64,000 bases of DNA from Auricularia sp. M13. Taxonomy: Eukaryota; Basidiomycota; Agaricomycetes; Auriculariales; Auriculariaceae. Location: NCBI GenBank assembly GCA_037042915.1, contig CM073193.1, positions 496,001 through 560,000 of the forward strand, written 5' to 3'. Of the stretch, positions 2,190 to 20,121 are shown one piece after another. The number at the start of each line of letters is the position of its first letter. Position 1 is the stretch's first letter. Below the pieces are notes generated by a model that saw only the letters and a list, made by a program, of their open reading frames with translations, was not told the origin of the DNA and did not search any database. A program made the translations under genes and the position numbers.

Positions 2190-4175
2190 CTAGGGTTCAA
2201 CTGGTTGCATCAGTGGCAAAGAGCGCAAGCCCACTTTGAGACGCGCCAGAACGCCCTCACACTCAGACAGCACCGACTCGGGCACGCGGCCGTGGCGATT
2301 TGGCAACCGAGAAACCCATTCGCGCACGGACAAAGACTCTACGGGCTGTAGCCCAACGCTCTCCTGCCCAGGCACGAAGGCCCACCGCTCAAGCGCATAG
2401 TCAGGTATGCCCACGGCGGCATCGAGCGGGCGGACGTAGCGATGGAAAGGGATTGTACCCTTGGAATTCAGAACGAGGGCCCAGCCGGGGTGCCGTGGCA
2501 CGCCTGCCATAGCGGCCTGGGCGGATGCAACAGTACTCAACAGGCCATCCGTCTCATCGAATGAGACAGTGGGGATCAGCGACGGCAAAGCGCCATAGGT
2601 GTAGCACGGAGTACCGTCTTCGAGCACAGCGGCCTCGACAGCGCCGACGGGGTGGAAATACGCGCGCATCTCGAAGAAGATCTCAGCCCAGCCGAGCTGC
2701 GCGCGAGGATCGTAGATGTGCTCGACGAACTTTGCGAGGCCGCGAACAACTCCTTCGGCTCCTAAATGCGCGAGCTCAACGCCGAATCGTGTTATAGTTG
2801 GAGTCGCGGGCATTTTATACATGTCGATCGGCGGGGCGAAGAGAACGACTGTCAGTCCCGCCGGCGGGTCGTCCTTTTCGGTCCATCGTACGCACTCTGG
2901 TGCGGAGAGCTTGAAGCCTGCCTTGATTCGAGTCTGATGGACGGCAGCCAACAGAGGGGGCGTTGCGAGATATATCGAGAGGGGCAGTACCTTTGTGGGA
3001 GGTCCCAACTTCGGACAGGCTAATGCTACGACGTTCTTCAAGTTCGGCAGTTGGAGGACGAGCGACTCGAGGATATTTGCAGTGAGAGTAGAGCACTTTG
3101 ATAGATTGAGGGATTCAGCATGCTGCAAGGCGTCCAGGAGTCCAAGAAGAGGAATAGCAACTACAGCACTGGTCGACAACCAGGGCGTCAGGTCGACGTA
3201 GGATGTCTTCTCTGCAAGAAGCAGCTGCTTGAGAAAGAACATGCCGTTCGCGCTGAGTTTGCGGGCGGCAAGCAATTCAGAGCGCAGCACTGCCAAGTGG
3301 TTCTGCTCGATTATCAGGTCCGCCAGAGTAGCCAGAGCATCGTCAGACTCCAACTCCTGCCCATCGGAGGACAGAAAGGCACGCAGAGCAGAAATGACAG
3401 AGAGCGCAGAAAGAGATGTCGGTACCGCGGGTGGAATATCGTCCACATTCGGATCGTCAACCACAATGAGTCCTCGGAGATGGCTAAATTCATCGGGAAA
3501 TGTAGCGCCAAGAGCAGCAACGTCCACGAGTGCATGACAATCGAGCAGTGCCACGGCAGAGAGATCGACCTGAGGCTTACTCGGATCATCCTGGCTAATG
3601 ACCGCGACCAAAGGTTCACGAATGAGCAACACCAATAATTCAGGAACCTCGAAGCCTCACCCGAGATATCCCAAGGCTGTCACAGGGCCTCTACCCGACC
3701 ACCAGAAGCAGTACCGGGGTGCGCCAGGTTCGGTGAGGTCGAAGCAGGTATACCCCTAGACCGATGATTTCAGCCATTCGGCGCAGGAAAAAAAATAATA
3801 TAAAAAAGACCTTACATCATCGTTGTTAAATCGACAGGGCTGCATGTGGATGGACTCTAAGCTCAGTCTGTATAGCTGGAAGCGGTCCATGTCCACGCGA
3901 CAAGATGTCACGAAGAGCCCAGTCAGATAGGGACATATCACGGTCGGGTCCTCTTGGGACATGTCGTCCTCGATGCTGTCGATGTCGGCGAGCTTGAGCG
4001 TAGAGAGCTCGGTCGCAATGGCGGCCGCGTTGAATGGATTGAGGAAGGCGCGCATTAGGCGGGCGGCAGCGTGCACCACGAGTCTGCCGTAGAGATACTG
4101 GGAGTGGAATGCCGCGACGCAGCGATATTGGCCTTGCACGCGCGCGATCACGAAGAGCTGGTGCCGTTGGCCCAT
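2190..4175 (-). CDS. MGQRHQ-family protein A, unknown function
   Basis: Exons: 3816-4175, 3661-3755 and 2190-3594; 619 residues. The start opens with MGQRHQLFVIAR, the hallmark of an expanded agaricomycete family that I know only as hypothetical proteins. N-terminal region (about 1-150): conserved RCVAAFHSQ, ARLMRAFLNPFNAAAIATEL, PYLTGLF and a YTCFDLTEPG-APRYCFW motif. Middle (about 270-340): a leucine-rich stretch with LTANILESLVLQLPNLKN. C-terminal region: ELAHLGAEGVVRGL, FFEMRAYFHPVG, PRHPGWALVLNSKGT, ERWAFVPGQESVGLQPVE and VREWVSRLP. The first intron is 60 nt and the second 66 nt. It lies head-to-tail with gene B, which has identical exon 1 and exon 2 lengths (360 and 95 nt), so the two arose by tandem duplication. 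No enzyme motif, signal peptide or membrane segment is evident. Confidence 0.82.
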
Positions 4176-4447
4176 CGTAGGTAATGCAAGCGGTCAAAAG
4201 CTGGGCCGAGCGGAGTTGGCGCGCTTGCCACGATCGGCGCTGGCATTGTGGTACTGTACAGCTGTCAATGGGGCGTCTCCGTTAGCCTGGGGCAAGATCC
4301 TCGTTCATTAGCTTTGACAGTACAAGCGCATCTCCGGCGACTTACTGCCCATTGAGACGATAGTTAGCTACAAACCAGCGACGCAGCCGTGCTCAGCGCG
4401 TTTATCGTACAGCAAATTATCATCAAGGAAGGAGGCGCAATGGCGAG

Positions 4448-6427
4448 CTAGGATGCAATTGTTTCCGGATCCGGAACTGGCAAAGAGCGTAGCCCCGCTT
4501 TGATGCGCTCCAGGACGCCTTCGCACTCAGACAGCACCGACTCGGGCACGTGTCCGTGTCCTTCCGGCAGTCGACCAGCCCACTCGCGCACGGATACAGC
4601 CTCAACAGGCTGGAGTCCAACTTTCTCCTGCCCAGGCACGTATTCCCACCGCTCGAATGCGTATTCAGGTCCTAAGACGTCGGAGGTGGGGGTATAAAAC
4701 CGACGATGGTCAGGCATGGTGCCCTTGGTGTTCAACACGAGAGCCCACCCGGGATGGCGGGGAACGCCCCGCATGGCGCCCTGGGCCCGCGAAAGGATCT
4801 GTCTCTCTGCCGTCCAAAGTTCCCCTGCGTTCCCGAAAATGACGTCCTGGCACAGATTCGGCAACGCGCCATAGCTGTAGCACGGAGCCCCGTCCGAAGA
4901 CGCGGCGGTCGCGAGAGTGCCGACCGGGTGGAAATACGCGCGCATCTCGAAGAAGAACCCGTCAGTGTCGAACCACCCGTGCGGATCGTAGAGGCGTTCC
5001 AGGAACTTCGACAAACCACGGACGACGCCTTCGGCCCCGAAATGCGCGAGCTCGACGCCGTACCTCATCATGGATCGGGATGTGCTGGATAGAGAACGGT
5101 TTCTGAGGGGTGGGGTGAAGAGAACGACCGTGAGACCGGCCGGCGGGTCACCCTCGATGTCGACCCATTGTGCGCATTCTGGGCCGGAACCTGCGAAGCG
5201 AGTATGATAGACGCCGGCCAGGAGAGGGGCCGTCGCGAGATACGCTGAGAGTGGCAGCGACCGTGTGAGTGTACCCAGTTCCGGACAGGCCAGCGCTATG
5301 ACATTCTTAAGGCTCGGCAATTTAAGGACAAGCGACTCAAGGGTGTCTGCGGTGAGTGTGGAGCAGGTCGAGACATCAAGGGTGTCGGCGTGCTGAAGGG
5401 CATCCGAGAGGTCAAGAAGAGACGTCGCTTCTAGAGCATTCGATGACAGCCAGGGCTTCAAATCAATGAACGCGGCTTTTTCGGCTAGGAGCAGCTGTTT
5501 CAGAAGGAAGAGGCCATTGGTGTTGAGTTTTTCCACGGCCAGCAATTCAGTGCGAAGCACAGTCAAATGGTTCTGCTCCACCACCAAATTCAGGAGAGCG
5601 GCGGTCGCGTCGTCCGGTTCTTGTTGGTGAACATCGGTAGACAGAAGGCTTCGGAGAGCGGAAACGACGGATAATGCAGAAAGAGACGCAGGCGGCGGCG
5701 GTGGCGGCGGCGATGAACTTGCGTCCTGTTGGGCTTGTTTGTCTCCACGGCGGCGCTTGAAGTCTTCAGGCCATGTAGCAGCAAGAGTAGAAACGTCCAG
5801 AAGAGAATACCGATCCAGTAGTTCGAGAACAGCGGGTTCCATTCTACCGTCGTACTGCCTGATCAGCCAGGACGGCGGTTGGCTCGATGAGCGACAGCAA
5901 TACGAGATAATCATGAAGCCTCACTCAAGATATCCCAGGGCCTTCAAGGGTTTTCCCCCTGGTAACCAGAAACAGTACCTGGGTTCACCGGGTATGGTCA
6001 GATCAAAGCAGCTATAACCCTGGCAAGATTTCAGCCGATCTGCGTAGAAAAAATTGCATAGAGTTACATCATCGTTGTCACAGTGAGAGGGAAGGACGTG
6101 GAAAGGCAATAAGCTCAATCTGAGTAGCTGGAAGTGGTCCATGTCGACGCGGCAAGATGTGATGAAGAGCCCAGTAAGGTACGGGCAAAGAACAGTTGGG
6201 TTCTCGTCGTATTCATCGTCCGAGACATCTTCGAAGTCTGAATCGTTCAACGTGGAGAGTTCAGTCGCAATGGCGGCCGAGTTGAATGGATTAATGAAGG
6301 CGCGCATTAGGCGGGCGGCAGCGTATACCACAGGTCTGCCGTAGAGCCACTGGGAGTGGAACGCCGCAACGCAGCGATAGCGCCCTCGCACCCGCGCGAT
6401 CACGAAGAGCTGGTGCCGTTGTCCCAT
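4448..6427 (-). CDS. MGQRHQ-family protein B, unknown function
   Basis: Exons: 6068-6427, 5925-6019 and 4448-5858; 621 residues. It has the same architecture as gene A: an MGQRHQLFVIARVRGRYRC opening, NPFNSAAIATEL, YSCFDLT-PGEPRYCFW, the leucine-rich block LTADTLESLVLKLPSLKN, then ELAHFGAEGVVRGLSKFLE, FFEMRAYFHPVG, PRHPGWALVLNTKGT and the C-terminal SVREWAGRLPEGHGHVPE. A Ser/Pro/Gln tract near residue 190 (SSPPPPPPPA) is absent from A. The first intron (6020-6067, 48 nt) is a multiple of three and has no in-frame stop, so retention would add 16 residues. The start is shared back-to-back with J-protein 1, about 216 nt away, so the two may share a promoter. Function is unknown. Confidence 0.83.
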
Positions 6428-6643: not shown

Positions 6644-7597
6644 ATGTCGCCTGCCAATAGCTCCTCAGGCCGCTCGTATACATCAGCTCAGGAGGATGTT
6701 GTCCAACGTGTTTTCGACTGCGATGCCACCGCTTACTATTCGATCTTGAACGTCGAAGAAGACGCCGACGCGGAAGAAATCAAACGGGCTTTCAAATCTG
6801 TGAGTTCTACATACCCCATGCGATAAGTTTGGGCTGATACAGTGGCATGCCAGCTCGCGTTACTGCTTCATCCAGACAAAAACGCTGCTCCACAGGCCGA
6901 AGAGGCGTTTAAAATTGTACGGCAGGCTTGGGAGGTTTTGAGCGACGACCAGGAGCGTGTGGCTTACGATAACGAGCGGCGCGGTGGCTTCTCGTCGTTC
7001 TTCTCGTCTTCATTCTCCTCGTCTTTCCCTAGCACTGCCGACGATTCTTGGAGCAGCTCTTCTGCTCGTCCGGAGCCGCCGCCGCAAGGCAAGCCACGCC
7101 GGAACGAAAACCGGAAGCAGCGCCGCCGTCGCCAGTATGAAGAGCGAATGGCCCGTCAACGGCAGCAGGAGGAAGAGCGTGCCTCGGCAGAAACAGAGGA
7201 GCTCCTGCGCCGCATTACGCGGGAAGCAGCGCGCCGAGGCATTCGCTTCTGGTACTGCCGACAATGCGACGACGTCCATATTGAGGGCGATGTGCATGTG
7301 CAGTCGCAGTCGCAGTCACAGTCTGGACGCGCTTCCCAGGCTCCGCGGCCTGAAACTGCCCAGGACGGCGGACTGTACGAGGCGCTGCTCACCCTGATTG
7401 TGATGGCTTTCGGCCTTCTCATGGTCCTTTATGCGCTCTACTATGGAATCAAGTTCCTCTTCACCTCGACATTCGGGAAGATTGTCCTCGGCATTGCAGG
7501 CATCGTGACCCTCTTGTATTACGTTCCCGACCCCAGCCCGCAGCGGCCGCAACCTAGAACCTATTATCGGAGACCAACACCAGGCCCTTATCAATGA
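6644..7597 (+). CDS. Membrane-anchored J-domain protein 1
   Basis: Exons: 6644-6799 and 6854-7597; 299 residues. J-domain proteins stimulate Hsp70 ATPase. The N-terminal J domain (about 22-90) has YYSILNVEEDADAEEIKRAFK, then LHPDKN with the essential HPD just after the 54-nt intron, and AFKIVRQAWEVLSD. It is followed by a Ser/Phe-rich linker, a basic Arg/Lys/Gln-rich region (about 140-185), a CRQCDDVHIEGDVH segment, and two hydrophobic stretches near the C-terminus (LLTLIVMAFGLLMVLYALYY and IVLGIAGIVTLLYYV). The layout resembles tail-anchored ER J-proteins, with the J domain expected on the cytosolic side; the compartment is an inference. J-protein 2, immediately downstream in the same direction, shares the J domain, intron position and promoter, which indicates tandem duplication. 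Confidence 0.85.
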
Positions 7598-7933: not shown

Positions 7934-8427
7934 ATGCCGCCCACCGTGACTAGTACCTCGTCAGGTCGCTCCTACACATCGGCCCAGGAGGATGTTGTCA
8001 TCCGCATATTTTCCTGTGACGCCAGCGCGTACTACGCCATCCTAAACGTCAAAGAAGATGCAGATCTTGAAGACATTAAACGTGCCTTCAAAGCTGTGAG
8101 TTTTGCTGCCTCCAGTGAATTGGGCGCCCTGGCTGACGGAATCAATGCCATGGCCAGCTTGCCCTGCTTCTCCATCCAGACAAAAATGCTGCTCCGCGGG
8201 CCGAAGAGGCTTTTAAGATTGTACAGCAGGCGTGGCAGGTCTTGAGCGACGCCCAACAACGCGCTGCGTACGATAGTAAACGGCGCGCTGGTGGCTTTAG
8301 CTCGTGGTTCTCTTCGTCTTCCGCTGCCAACGGTTCTGGGACTGGCTCTTCTGCTCGTCAGCCACCGCAGCCGCAACCACAACAACAGCAGCAGCAGCAG
8401 CGTCAGCAGCAACAACAACAGCAGCGT

Positions 8428-8462
<35 letters not shown>

Positions 8463-9315
8463 GCAGCGTCAGCAGCAGCAGCAGCAGCAACAACAACAAC
8501 AGCAACAACAGCAACGACAACAACAACAACAGCAGCAGCAGCAGAGGGAGCAGCAGCGCCGCCGCGAAGATGAAGAGCGAATGGCTCGCCAGGACGCAGT
8601 GGACGAAGAGCAGCGCGCACGCGAGGAGGCCCAACGCGCCCGGGAGGAGGCCGACCGCGCGCGAGAGGAGATCGACCGCGCGCGCGAGGAGGCGGACCGC
8701 GCAAAGGAGGAATGGACGCCCTCCGTACGCGAGCAGCTGCAGCGCATCCACCAGGACGCCCAGCGCGCCCGGGAGGAGGCCCAGCGCGCCCGGGAGAATG
8801 CCCAGCGCGCACGCGAGGAGGCGCAACGCGCGCGGCAGGACCGGCTGCCCGCCCCGCGCGAGGACGTACGGGGCGCATGGGAGAACGCGCAGCTCGCGCG
8901 GCAGAACGCACGTATTGCGCAGGAGAACGCGCGGCTTGCGCGCGCCGCTGCCCAGCTCGTGCGGGAGAACACCCAGCTGCTGCGCGGGGAGGTCCAACGC
9001 GCGTCTGGGGCCGAGCTTCCCGTCGCGCAGAATGATGTGCAGCGCGCGCGGGATGACGCCCAGCGCGCGCGGGAGGACGCCCAGCGTGCGAGGGATGATG
9101 CCCAACGCGCGCGACTGGAGGCACAACGCGCGAGGGCAGAGGCCCAAAGCGCCAGGGCAGAGGCTGACAAGCTGCGACGCCGCATTCTTCTACAGCATCT
9201 CAACCCCGAGGTCGGCCTGGACGAACTCGAGCTGGCCGACATGCCCGTCGTCGTGTTTGTGTTGGCCGCCGGTATACTCCTCGCACGCTATTGCTACTTG
9301 GCCAGGGACCGTTAA
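7934..9315 (+). CDS. J-domain protein 2 with polyglutamine and long heptad coiled coil
   Basis: Exons: 7934-8095 and 8158-9315; 439 residues. The J domain (about 25-92) is close to J-protein 1: YYAILNVKEDADLEDIKRAFK, an intron, LHPDKN and AFKIVQQAWQVLSD. It has HPD and should act with an Hsp70. The rest differs: a glutamine tract (about 135-195), then roughly 190 residues of 7-residue units of the AQRAREE type, a textbook heptad pattern for a long charged coiled coil. A single hydrophobic segment follows near the C-terminus (VVVFVLAAGILLARY) with a short basic tail, so the protein is probably tail-anchored with the coil facing the cytosol. J-protein 1 has no such coil, so it was gained here or lost there after duplication. 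Confidence 0.85.
8374..8557 (+). repeat. CAG/CAA trinucleotide tract encoding polyglutamine
   Basis: About 55 consecutive codons are almost all CAG or CAA, broken by a few CGT/CGA (Arg) codons. The mixture of CAG and CAA interrupts a pure triplet run, so the tract is less slippage-prone than uninterrupted CAG. It is translated within J-protein 2. Confidence 0.9.
8620..9165 (+). repeat. 21-nt minisatellite encoding heptad repeats
   Basis: Imperfect 21-nt units based on GCCCAGCGCGCCCGGGAGGA repeat in frame, giving AQRAREE/ADRAREE/AQRARDD heptads. The array is interrupted by three or four non-repeat inserts (for example around 8711-8755 and 8845-8885). Unit purity is high enough that recent expansion or gene conversion is likely. 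Confidence 0.85.
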
Positions 9316-9856: not shown

Positions 9857-10859
9857 ATGGCCTACACCGTGCCCATCGAGCTGCCCGAGTCGCGCGAGGA
9901 CTGCGTGTACCTGTGCAGCGCGGCCGAGGAGGCCAGCCGATTCGAAGGTCTGTCAGGGGAAACCCGCCTCGTCGTTTGCAGCAGAGCTGACGACGGGACG
10001 GTGGGCGGGGTGCTGTGTTGCAGATATGGTCACGTACATGCGCCGCGTGACGACGTTTGAGCAGGAGCTGCACATCGACGAGGTACGTTCGCGTTCCAGA
10101 GTGTTGCCCCTGAGTCCAGCCTTGCCTCTGACGCTTGGCGGCGAGCGCAGCGCAACCTGTTCAGCGTCGCGTACAAGGAGCTCGTGGGCCTGCGGCGCAA
10201 GAGCCTGCGCCACCTGACAGACCTGGGCCCGCCGCTGGCGCCGTCGTCGGAGCGCGAGCGCGCGCTGCTCGACGGCCTGCGCGCGCGTGTGCGCGGCGAG
10301 CTCATCGAACTGTGCGAGGAGGCGCTGCGGACGATCAAGGAGAACCTGCTCCCGCGCAGTGTGCACTCCGAGTCGACAGTGTTCTATCACAAGATGTGCG
10401 TCCTCCCCTCTCTCGGTAGCAGGCAGAAAGGGAACGCGGGCTGACGCTGAGCGCACTGGAAGGACGGCGGACTACCTGCGCTACCTCGCCGAGTTCAGCG
10501 CGGGCGCCGAGCGGCAGGCCTACGGCGACCGCGCGGCGGAGGCGTACGGGCGCGCGCGCGCGCTGGCAGACGCGCTGGGCGCGACGCACCCCGTGCGGCT
10601 CGGGCTCGCGCTGAACCTGAGCGTGTTCCACTTCGAGATCCGCAGCGACGTGCGCGAGGCGTTCGAGGTTGCGTCGCGCGCGCTGGACGAGGCCAAGGAG
10701 CATTTCGACGAGATGGAGCAGGTGCACGCTAAGGACTCCATGGTGGTGATGCAGCTGCTGCAGGACAACATCCACCTGTGGTCCGCCGCGGCGAACGAGC
10801 CCCAGGACCATGAGGGGTCCGAGGAGGAGCAGCACCATGGTGAGTTTGATGACATTTGA
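9857..10859 (+). CDS. Divergent 14-3-3 family protein (paralog 2)
   Basis: Exons: 9857-9947, 10024-10082, 10151-10395 and 10463-10859; 263 residues. It reads SREDCVYLCSAAEEASRFED, MVTYMRRVTTFEQELHIDE, RNLFSVAYKELVGLRR, STVFYHKM, TADYLRYLAEF, LGLALNLSVFHFEI and DSMVVMQLLQDNIHLW, so all nine helices appear present. Pocket residues equivalent to Lys49, Arg56, Arg127/Tyr128 and Asn173 are intact, so phosphopeptide binding is expected. It has one intron (10083-10150) that the other two paralogs lack. Codons are strongly GC-rich. The C-terminal tail is acidic. A perfect GTGAGT donor at 10840 opens an alternative end, splicing to 10942-11003 and giving 277 residues; transcripts would decide. Confidence 0.85.
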
Positions 10860-18100: not shown

Positions 18101-20121
18101 CTAGATTGCTGCAGCGAAAAGCGGGTTTCTAGCCATAAAAAGATTATTTAACAGCTCGCCCTGCGTCACCTCCCTGCGGCGAGCGCGCACCCGATTCGCA
18201 GACTCGACCGAAAGCAGCGTCGCATTCGCCGCAGAGAGCAGCCGGTCGCATTCATCCAGAGCGGCATCAAGGCCTGCCGCAGCGCCATCGTCGCGTTTTT
18301 GCAGATTGGCCCAATCGCGAACGGAAAGAGCCTCGCAGGCCACGAGTCGGCCGTCCTGCCCTGCAGCGTGCGCCCAGCGCACGAAGGCATAGGCGGGCCC
18401 GCGAGCGCCGGGACGGACCGTCACCAGACTGACGAGGCCAGCGAGCAGGTTGCGCGGCGGCGGGCCGCGGACGTCGAGCACGAGCGTCCAGCCCGGGTGC
18501 CGCGGCGCCGCACTGAGGTCCTGGCCGTCGTCTTCACCGTCGTTCGCGAGGGACGGAAGGCATCCGAAGCTCTCGACGTGCAGGGGCTCGGATGCGTTTG
18601 CGCGCGTCGAGCCTTCGACGGCGGGCTGGGTGAGGGGCAGCGTGCCGATGGCGTGGAAGGCGGCGCGGAGGAAGAAGGGCGTGCTGTCGCACAGCGCGGG
18701 CTCGCCGTATAGGTAGGTCAGTAGCGTGTTCAGGCCGCGCACGACGCCCTCGGCGCCGCAGTGCGCAAGCTCGATGCCCTGCCGCTCGACCCGCACGCGC
18801 GCCGCGCCGGGGTACATCGTGTTGAGCGAGAAGAGACTGTGCGAGGCGAGGGGCTCGGAGAAAGCGTAGACGGTCAGACCCGGCGGCGCGTCTTCTGGCG
18901 TTGCGACGCGTATGCACTCGGTCTTCATCATGTACTGTTCGAATGTCTGCTTGTTGCGCACGGCTTCTGCGAGCGGCGCCGTCGCCAGGAAGGTCGTGAG
19001 CGGGAGGTGTACGGTGAGCGGACCAAGATTCGGGCAGCCGAACGCGAAGAGGTGGCGCAGGCCAGGGAGATTTGGCACGAGTGACTGGACGATGTCGGCC
19101 GTTAGCGAGCTGCTGCCCGAGAGGTCGAGCGTTTCGACGTGCTGGAGCGCATCCTGTAGGAGGTGAAGCTGATTCGCGTGCAGAGCATCCGTTTGCAGCC
19201 ACGGCCTCAGGTTAACATGCGACTCGTGTTCGCGCTTGAGCAGCAGCGCCAGTAGGGCAACGCCTGTCGCCCCAAGAGATGTTGTGACCTTGAGCAGCTC
19301 TTCACGCAGCGCTGCAGTATGGTGCGGCTGTAGGGTCTGCGCGAATGCCACCGTATCCGTCGAATCTGACTGCAAGAAGGCCTGAACGGCGGTCCGAACA
19401 GCAAGCATGGCCAACGTGCCGCCATTCTCCAAGATTTGCGGTTCCACAGACGGTTCAGCGTCCTCATTATCATCAGCGGAGAGATCGACCTGGAAGTCCG
19501 AGGGCCAGGTTTCCGCAAGGGCCGCCAGGCTCACAAGCTCCGTACTCTCAACCAACTCATAGTCTTCCTCCGGCGCAAGGTCTACTAGATCGTAGGGCCT
19601 GCGTCGATGTTAACTTCTCTTGTCCATTGCCAGCCACAATGGAATCCCACCACGCACTCCAAGTAATGAACCGAGTCCAAAGGTTGGCGCGCCCATGACC
19701 AGAAGCAATAACGAGGCTTTGCAGGTTCAGTCAAGTCAAAGCACGTATATCCCTGTTCAAATATCCCAAATTCAGCATTCGCGACGCAAGTGATAGCAGC
19801 CAGCGCGAGGCCCACCTCGTCGTTCTGGCAGGTGGACGGCACCGTATTGCTCCGCAGGACACTCAAGCTGAACATCCTAAGCCGTCGGCGCTCGAGGCGG
19901 AACACGCTCAAGAACAACCCGACGAGGTAGGGGTACTGTTTAGCGGCAGCGAGCTCGCTGGCGATGGCCGCGGCGTTGAACGGGTTGGCGAACGCGCGCA
20001 GCAGCCGCGCGCACGCGGCCAAGACGGCGTGGCCCCAGATCCACTGCGAGTGGAACGCGGCGACGCAGCGGTAGCGGCCGTCGATGCGCGCGACGACGAA
20101 CAGCTGGTGCCGTTGGCCCAT
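18101..20121 (-). CDS. MGQRHQ-family protein C, unknown function
   Basis: Exons: 19816-20121, 19658-19752 and 18101-19598; 632 residues. It has the same family layout as genes A and B: MGQRHQLFVVARIDGRYRC, AFHSQWIWGHAV, NPFNAAAIASEL, GYTCFDLTEPAKPRYCFW, a leucine-rich block (LTADIVQSLVPNLPGLRHL), IELAHCGAEGVVRGLNTLL, RAAFHAIGTLPL, PRHPGWTLVLDVRG and a C-terminal ALSVRDWANLQ. The second exon is 95 nt, exactly as in A and B. The intron before it (19753-19815, 63 nt) has no stop and keeps frame, so a form longer by 21 residues is possible. Coding DNA is richer in GC than in A and B. It sits about 12 kb from the tandem pair, tail-to-tail with nothing recognisable. No catalytic motif was seen. Confidence 0.82.

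Follow-up and report, generated by a model that had tools for sequence, protein, structure and literature searches.

Intron gain and purifying selection after gene transfer are common in fungi according to PMC11708051, which reports that 44% of the genes of prokaryotic origin contain introns and that selection on them is purifying overall. Here we describe three neighbouring fungal genes, A, B and C, which probably represent a further case. They lie in a 64,000-nucleotide stretch of the Auricularia sp. M13 genome (C1:496001-560000 of 52.1 Mb in 14 contigs; hereafter the window), and their products begin with the residues MGQRHQ; no literature on such proteins was found. Based on profile comparisons, we regard it as established that the N-terminal module of these proteins, taken as a whole, is homologous to uncharacterised proteins encoded on viral contigs and on plasmids of Bacillota, the case being least strong where the third motif of gene C is concerned. 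What is new is this cross-kingdom module, which connects a fungal orphan family with small viral-contig and gut-bacterial plasmid proteins and makes the function of the fungal genes approachable from the easier prokaryotic side, where the module would be a stand-alone protein of about 200 residues.

The gene triplet and its N-terminal module

Genes A (2190..4175, 619 residues), B (4448..6427, 621 residues) and C (18101..20121, 632 residues) are all encoded on the minus strand. According to the splice models, each consists of three exons (4175-3816, 3755-3661 and 3594-2190 in A, where the frame is open to the stop codon; 6427-6068, 6019-5925 and 5858-4448 in B; 20121-19816, 19752-19658 and 19598-18101 in C) separated by two GT...AG introns of 60 and 66, 48 and 66, and 63 and 59 nucleotides, respectively. 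A and B are arranged head-to-tail with 272 bp between them, the segment 2190-6427 spanning exactly from the stop codon of A to the ATG of B, and the start of C is found 11.7 kb beyond B. The initial annotation of this DNA, made from the sequence alone, had described such an arrangement with C some 12 kb away, and it stands, as do the motifs that were said to be shared by the three proteins (MGQRHQ, FDLTxPxxPRYCFW, GAEGVVRGL and PRHPGW) and the exon of exactly 95 nucleotides, which is exon 2 in every gene. Identity to protein B amounts to 62% for A and 44% for C.

Searches of the fungus's own genome with exon 3 returned the similarity between A, B and C at E values (expectation values) of 0 to 1.9e-58, beyond chance, and the pattern M-G-Q-R/S-H-Q had three matches genome-wide, all at these genes, with none for the reversed control. 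No copies besides A, B and C were found in the 52-Mb genome by exact patterns and six-frame single-sequence searches, which strongly diverged copies may have escaped because of this very design; a member of the viral-contig family used as the query missed even A, B and C. Since only three copies were found, the family that had been called expanding is a local triplet in this genome: its paralogous copies are real, while an expansion beyond them was not seen.

The ratio of nonsynonymous to synonymous substitution rates (dN/dS), calculated by the Nei-Gojobori method over spliced codons, was 0.30 for A and B, 0.31 for A and C and 0.29 for B and C. In individual segments it ranged from 0.13 to 0.47 and thus stayed below 0.48 wherever it could be computed, synonymous sites being saturated and the ratio not computable in residues 60-152 of the two pairs that include C; averaged ratios of this kind could hide diversifying selection at single sites. 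The synonymous divergence (dS) between A and B is approximately 0.9 and the tandem pair is therefore not young. Residues 1-59 are 88% identical between A and B and 71-73% identical between either of them and C, and the later segments are 33-62% identical. A constant N-terminus followed by a variable middle had been noted initially; the N-terminus is indeed the better-conserved part, but the variability behind it is mild, as these identities and the absence of any dN/dS above 0.48 indicate. Overall, A, B and C are intact three-exon paralogues that are constrained by purifying selection and display no sign of diversifying selection.

The N-terminal part, hereafter the MGxR module, is encoded by exons 1 and 2 and occupies 5925..6427 in gene B (residues 1-152), 3661..4175 in gene A and 19658..20121 in gene C, all on the minus strand. 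Its motifs, MGQRHQ, HxQWLYG and DN(N/D)DG...RYCFW, follow each other in the same order in the fungal proteins and in the viral-contig and plasmid family. All three genes start with MGxRxQ at residue 1, and by eye no signal-like stretch follows the MGQRHQ start. The second motif, which comes after the second hydrophobic stretch, reads HSQWLYG in B, HSQYLYG in A (tryptophan to tyrosine) and HSQWIWG in C (tyrosine to tryptophan), and the third block reads DNDDGYSCFDLTIPGEPRYCFW in B, NNDDG in A and, at its weakest, QNDEG in C. Six residues (G2, R4, Q6, Q26, N118 and G121) are invariant in an alignment of 21 module sequences, and six more (H24, W27, G30, D117, D120 and Y150) are nearly so. Intron 1 of gene B (6067-6020) interrupts the DNDDG motif ahead of its glycine, and intron 2 (5924-5859) is located at the end of the module. 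The match with viral-contig proteins stops at this border between exons 2 and 3, where their KPLKALGYLE corresponds to PVSAKEYVSAYY; we therefore consider exons 1 and 2 to form the module and exon 3 to be the fungal-side part.

Relatives on viral contigs and plasmids

The exon-1 alignment, scanned against IMG/VR, picked up 33 stretches, among which one relative, L145, was confirmed (E 8e-7, on a 124-kb contig). It encodes a protein of 259 residues with an MGQRHQLF start, then YHHQWLYGR and later DNNDGITIIDLVENKYCYM, the last of which is the counterpart of what exon 2 encodes in A, B and C. Separate scans with a DNA pattern for every motif returned 13 stretches for MGQRHQ, 13 for HHQWLYG and 12 for DNNDGxxxxD. 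Family members made up 8, 6 and 10 of these, respectively, as counted by a profile scan of 13,132 frames from 156 loci in which the sequences used to build the profile match by construction. Four loci (L148, L154, L155 and L156, the last being the contig of L145) appeared in all three lists. Two of the eight members in the MGQRHQ list (L150 and L159) represent a single copy truncated after 53 codons, and the two non-members in the DNNDG list (L297 and L299) encode one identical, unrelated protein. Two viral contigs, at L294:1599-1757 and L295:1573-1731, carry an identical copy truncated after 53 codons. In total, 11 distinct viral-contig members were used, 7 of them on contigs longer than 120 kb, the phage status of which is that assigned by IMG/VR. 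In three members an ATC (isoleucine) codon takes the place of the initiator ATG while the rest is conserved (L164:9126, L298:13286 on the minus strand and L166:7646 on the minus strand); no in-frame ATG, GTG or TTG is found between the last upstream stop codon, or the start of the printed frame, and this ATC, which is possibly a rare start codon.

On the bacterial side, a protein search of plasmids with L296 (MGQRSQ) led to a protein of the Ruminococcus albus plasmid pRUMAL01 (E 2e-7). This in turn led to a Lactobacillus johnsonii plasmid protein with an MGERTQ start, at an E value of 0.7 and over 40 residues only, a match which was accepted because all three motifs are present. Relatives of the L. 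johnsonii protein then turned up in 94 of 72,556 plasmid records, of which Enterococcus accounted for 83, and all annotated relatives among the matches listed or fetched are described as hypothetical proteins. Genes for JAB, ArdA, Rpn or toxin-antitoxin proteins are near the plasmid genes at L302-L304, L307 and L308, with no such neighbours at L301, L305 and L306; as only some of the loci have them, these neighbourhoods are too mixed to point to a role.

Evidence for homology came from several profiles. A profile built from nine viral-contig proteins ranked B (E 5.4e-8), A (7.4e-7) and C (2e-6) ahead of every sequence that is not a frame of these genes (2.7 or higher), among 990 window frames and 66 MGTR proteins. 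With the first two motifs removed, B, A and C still took ranks 1 to 3 at the DNDDG motif (E 0.26, 0.36 and 0.7), a weak result when taken alone. A profile of 18 viral-contig and plasmid proteins improved the E values to 4.1e-16 for B, 6.8e-13 for C and 6.8e-12 for A, every spliced protein outscoring its own unspliced frame. When the three fungal modules were aligned with the same 18 proteins using hhalign, the match extended over residues 1-152 (99.2%, E 1.3e-19), and exon 1 alone against ten sequences gave 98.0% and E 1.7e-13. The least circular test used a plasmid-only profile of six MGERTQ proteins, none of which had been fetched by a window motif. Among 1,059 sequences it placed gene B first (E 9.6e-4), matching both motif blocks, and its hhalign counterpart gave 84%, the P values being 7.6e-6 at the first block and 0.006 at the third motif.

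These tests bear on the very improbable proposal that the likeness to phage proteins is an artefact, created by using MGQRHQ as a search motif: several viral-contig members were indeed fetched by that pattern, and proteins fetched by one motif reach E values of 0.004 to 8.7e-5 from that motif alone, but the MGERTQ plasmid proteins were reached through a chain of protein searches whose starting point was the DNNDG pattern, and a profile of them puts gene B in first place with matches at two distinct motif blocks, by which the artefact is largely refuted.

Comparisons with named families were negative for the module. Scanning A, B and C with Pfam gave a single sub-threshold match, that of gene B to Dscam_C (E 0.12); NCBIfam had no match for the N-terminal regions of B and C and PHROGs had one, at E 0.21; a PDB search by sequence turned up no convincing match to gene B or to the module; and PADLOC defence models compared with the 21 module sequences reached at best E 0.02 and 0.066, for one member each, which we take as chance. 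The view that this is an unnamed family is thus upheld, as no credible match to its N-terminal module emerged from Pfam, NCBIfam, PHROGs or the PDB. Its description as a purely agaricomycete family has to be given up, the N-terminal 152 residues being common to viral-contig and plasmid proteins.

Origin and possible mode of action

The part encoded by exon 3 has a different character. In gene B it includes a leucine-rich repeat (LRR)-like stretch of the FBXL type with approximately two repeats (about 5276..5443, minus strand; equivalents are found in A and C) and a C-terminal domain with GAEGVVRGL, PRHPGW and a VSVREW block, conserved in all three proteins (about 4499..5152, minus strand), of which no relative was found. 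The LRR-like stretch was recognised by comparing a profile of the three exon-3 proteins with the PDB, where it aligned to several repeats of F-box/LRR-repeat protein 2 (6o60_C, E 0.0031). Pfam LRR_4 scored E 0.079 for the stretch in C, below the cut-off, and did not match that in B, and Pfam had no match for the C-terminal stretches of B and C. An AF2 model of exon 3 had a mean predicted local distance difference test score (pLDDT) of 47.8 and was not used for claims about the fold. By eye the C-terminal domain could be a second, degenerate copy of the MGxR module, an idea which was rejected for want of profile support.

In a maximum-likelihood tree of 21 modules the fungal sequences form one group (support 100/98), which falls inside a clade of MGQRHQ-type viral-contig proteins (98/97) and beside L147 (91/87, under the star mark of the tool). 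Taken together with the profile matches, this makes it probable in our view that A, B and C, constrained genes composed of a phage- or plasmid-type module and a part with FBXL-like LRRs, were transferred and fused and now act through a pocket in the module. A gene derived from a phage or bacterium would have entered a fungal genome and gained introns; it would then have been joined to an LRR protein at the border marked by intron 2, and local duplication of the fused gene would have produced A, B and C. Polar residues that are widely spaced along a protein and conserved often mark a binding or active site, and G2, R4, Q6, H24, Q26, W27, G30, D117, N118, D120 and G121 may come together as one ligand-binding or catalytic pocket, the start of which would have to be a free N-terminus. 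The LRR and C-terminal part could bind a protein partner and position or switch this pocket inside the cell. The best-supported form of the proposal would have the proteins act intracellularly, with the MGxR module directed by the LRR and C-terminal part. If correct, A, B and C would be a clear example in which a eukaryotic repeat protein and a module of prokaryotic or viral stock have been fused at an intron. A bolder extension, which we think unlikely, is that mushroom-forming fungi domesticated the module from accessory genes of very large phages and plasmids and combined it with LRRs, giving rise to a class of intracellular sensors or effectors whose active part is common to phage and plasmid proteins for host conflict or takeover.

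Several observations weigh against transfer, fusion and action through a pocket. The prokaryotic side is thin, since the exon-1 scan of 84,980 bacterial and archaeal species genomes returned 12 stretches and no relative, 50,697 phage records contained none when searched with gene B and with four members of the family, and two overlapping draws of 398 genomes, made from the phyla to which a Lachnospiraceae and a Paenibacillus genome belong, scored 0 of 398 each. Gene B is only 23-35% identical to the viral-contig proteins; the HxQW motif of A has tyrosine in place of tryptophan, and A and C are without the first aspartate of DNNDG. The nine-protein profile scored C slightly better unspliced (E 2.8e-7) than spliced and scored the unrelated L297/L299 protein, a product of the DNNDG pattern search, at E 8.7e-5, so that an E value near 1e-5 is not proof on its own. 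With the plasmid-only profile C (E 0.058) and A (E 0.33) were not significant, A falling below one MGTR protein (0.22) and its own unspliced frame (0.13). The tree is midpoint-rooted, its end branches are long and the composition of gene C is deviant, for which reasons the direction of transfer, from phage or bacterium to fungus, is only likely. The pocket, finally, would be a reading of residue conservation, which is its sole basis.

Vertical inheritance offers a doubtful but serious alternative, in which the module is an ancient cellular domain that was passed down in fungi and borrowed by phages and plasmids, leaving A, B and C as an ordinary lineage-specific LRR family. A tree that cannot be rooted leaves room for this, and the introns and the fusion show that the genes are well settled in their genome. 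Against it, all prokaryotic relatives found sit on viral contigs or plasmids, the fungal sequences are nested among those of viral contigs in the tree, and none of at least 118 HHQWLYG loci from bacterial and archaeal genomes had a member at E <1e-3, the best value being 0.0039.

A role in self/non-self or stress recognition, proposed in the initial annotation, would have the constant N-terminus signal and the variable middle recognise. As this model would predict, conservation is far higher in residues 1-59 than in the remainder and LRR-like repeats occur in the middle, but purifying selection (overall dN/dS 0.29-0.31) does not favour diversification of this sort. With dN/dS at 0.13-0.47 in every computable segment, only three copies found in the fungus's own genome and no HET, NACHT/NB-ARC, TIR or other recognition domain scored in Pfam, this role gained no support and we judge it distinctly unlikely.

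It seems improbable, too, that the proteins are F-box-like adaptors of ubiquitin ligases in which the LRR picks the substrate and the N-terminal module recruits the ligase. The four PDB profile matches with E values of 10 or less included FBXL2 (E 0.0031) and FBXL5 (E 0.95), though for the LRR part only; a Pfam scan at E up to 10 found no F-box in A, B or C, and LRRs alone do not define this class.

Surroundings, a second MGxR-type family and comparison with known proteins

Two divergent 14-3-3 genes flank the A/B pair, one at 838-1559 on the minus strand (Pfam 14-3-3, E 5.3e-15 and 8.4e-32 for two of its exons) and the other at 10218-10859 on the plus strand, where part of the gene was scored (E 8.6e-34); our impression is that two 14-3-3 paralogues so close together are unusual. 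Just upstream of B begin tandem DnaJ-domain genes on the plus strand (approximately 6644-7597 and 7934-9315; Pfam DnaJ, E 1.1e-12 and 2.9e-13), the second of which encodes a long glutamine run and RAREEAQ-type repeats.

The same genome also harbours at least five MGTRHL loci (L054-L060: C2:724275-724922, C2:2222084-2222707, C2:2226289-2227176, C2:2263128-2263939 and C3:1032415-1033023), one of them with stop codons in frame, and fragments besides; three of the C2 loci lie within 42 kb, with fragments nearby. Scanning IMG/VR for MGTRHL yielded 174 relatives among 180 stretches, the best full-length match being 40% identical, and MGTR proteins occur in 15 phage records, always uncharacterised or unannotated. 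This family (L049-L051 and L065-L144) corresponds to phrog_30528, of unknown function, and no literature on MGTRHL proteins was found. A full-length MGTR profile (with QYGQWDGYPxGQG and CEWAYVIDLD) had no significant match to A, B or C, decoys scoring equally. Aligned with the module by hhalign, the MGTR family reached P values of 0.002-0.024 in local mode, across 16-23 columns, and of 0.94 and 0.025 in global mode; with the 21 module sequences pooled, P was 0.0039-0.0097 across 23 columns, above all of 60 column shuffles. In hmmsearch the MGTR proteins do not stand out from 2,002 decoys, which were reading frames taken from viral, bacterial and plasmid loci; MGTRHL genes were therefore rejected as close relatives of A, B and C, and a common MGxR superfamily is unproven. 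Against a previous set of decoys, 13 of the top 14 non-family matches had been MGTR proteins, a result we do not count, those decoys having been window frames. A gene of the MGTR(S/A) type is present in 3 of the 5 MGQR loci of at least 10 kb (L164, L166 and L298) as against 0 of 8 other viral loci in this size range, by a motif expression, in small numbers and with genome size uncontrolled; L164, L166 and L298 are loci of long viral contigs.

Set beside A, B and C, the MGTR(H/N)L proteins resemble the module in their MGxR start and in a QW pair after the second hydrophobic stretch, and they are stand-alone proteins found in phages. F-box/LRR-repeat protein 2 (6o60_C) has LRR repeats of a cysteine-containing type, which the LRR-like stretch of exon 3 resembles, but in A, B and C only about two repeats are recognisable and Pfam finds no F-box. 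The plasmid proteins WP_163588946.1 (L. johnsonii), WP_002347511.1 (Enterococcus faecium) and WP_013483486.1 (R. albus pRUMAL01) share with the fungal proteins the MG(E/Q)R(T/S)Q start, (H/Y)YQWG/NxG and DNN/D(D/C)G, and differ from gene B in their middle part, with 17-25% identity. In the viral-contig family (L145, L147, L148, L149/L287, L154, L155, L164/L289, L166, L290, L296 and L298/L288) an MGQR(H/S)Q N-terminus (IGQR in three) is followed by HxQW(L/N)YG or a near variant, then by DNNDG, mostly with ...D...KYCFM, and an A/S-x-x-Y block, in the same order as in A, B and C. Unlike these, the viral-contig proteins are stand-alone, with lengths from 198 to at least 319 residues and often a long insert between the first and second motifs, and no LRR or fungal C-terminal part was recognised in them.

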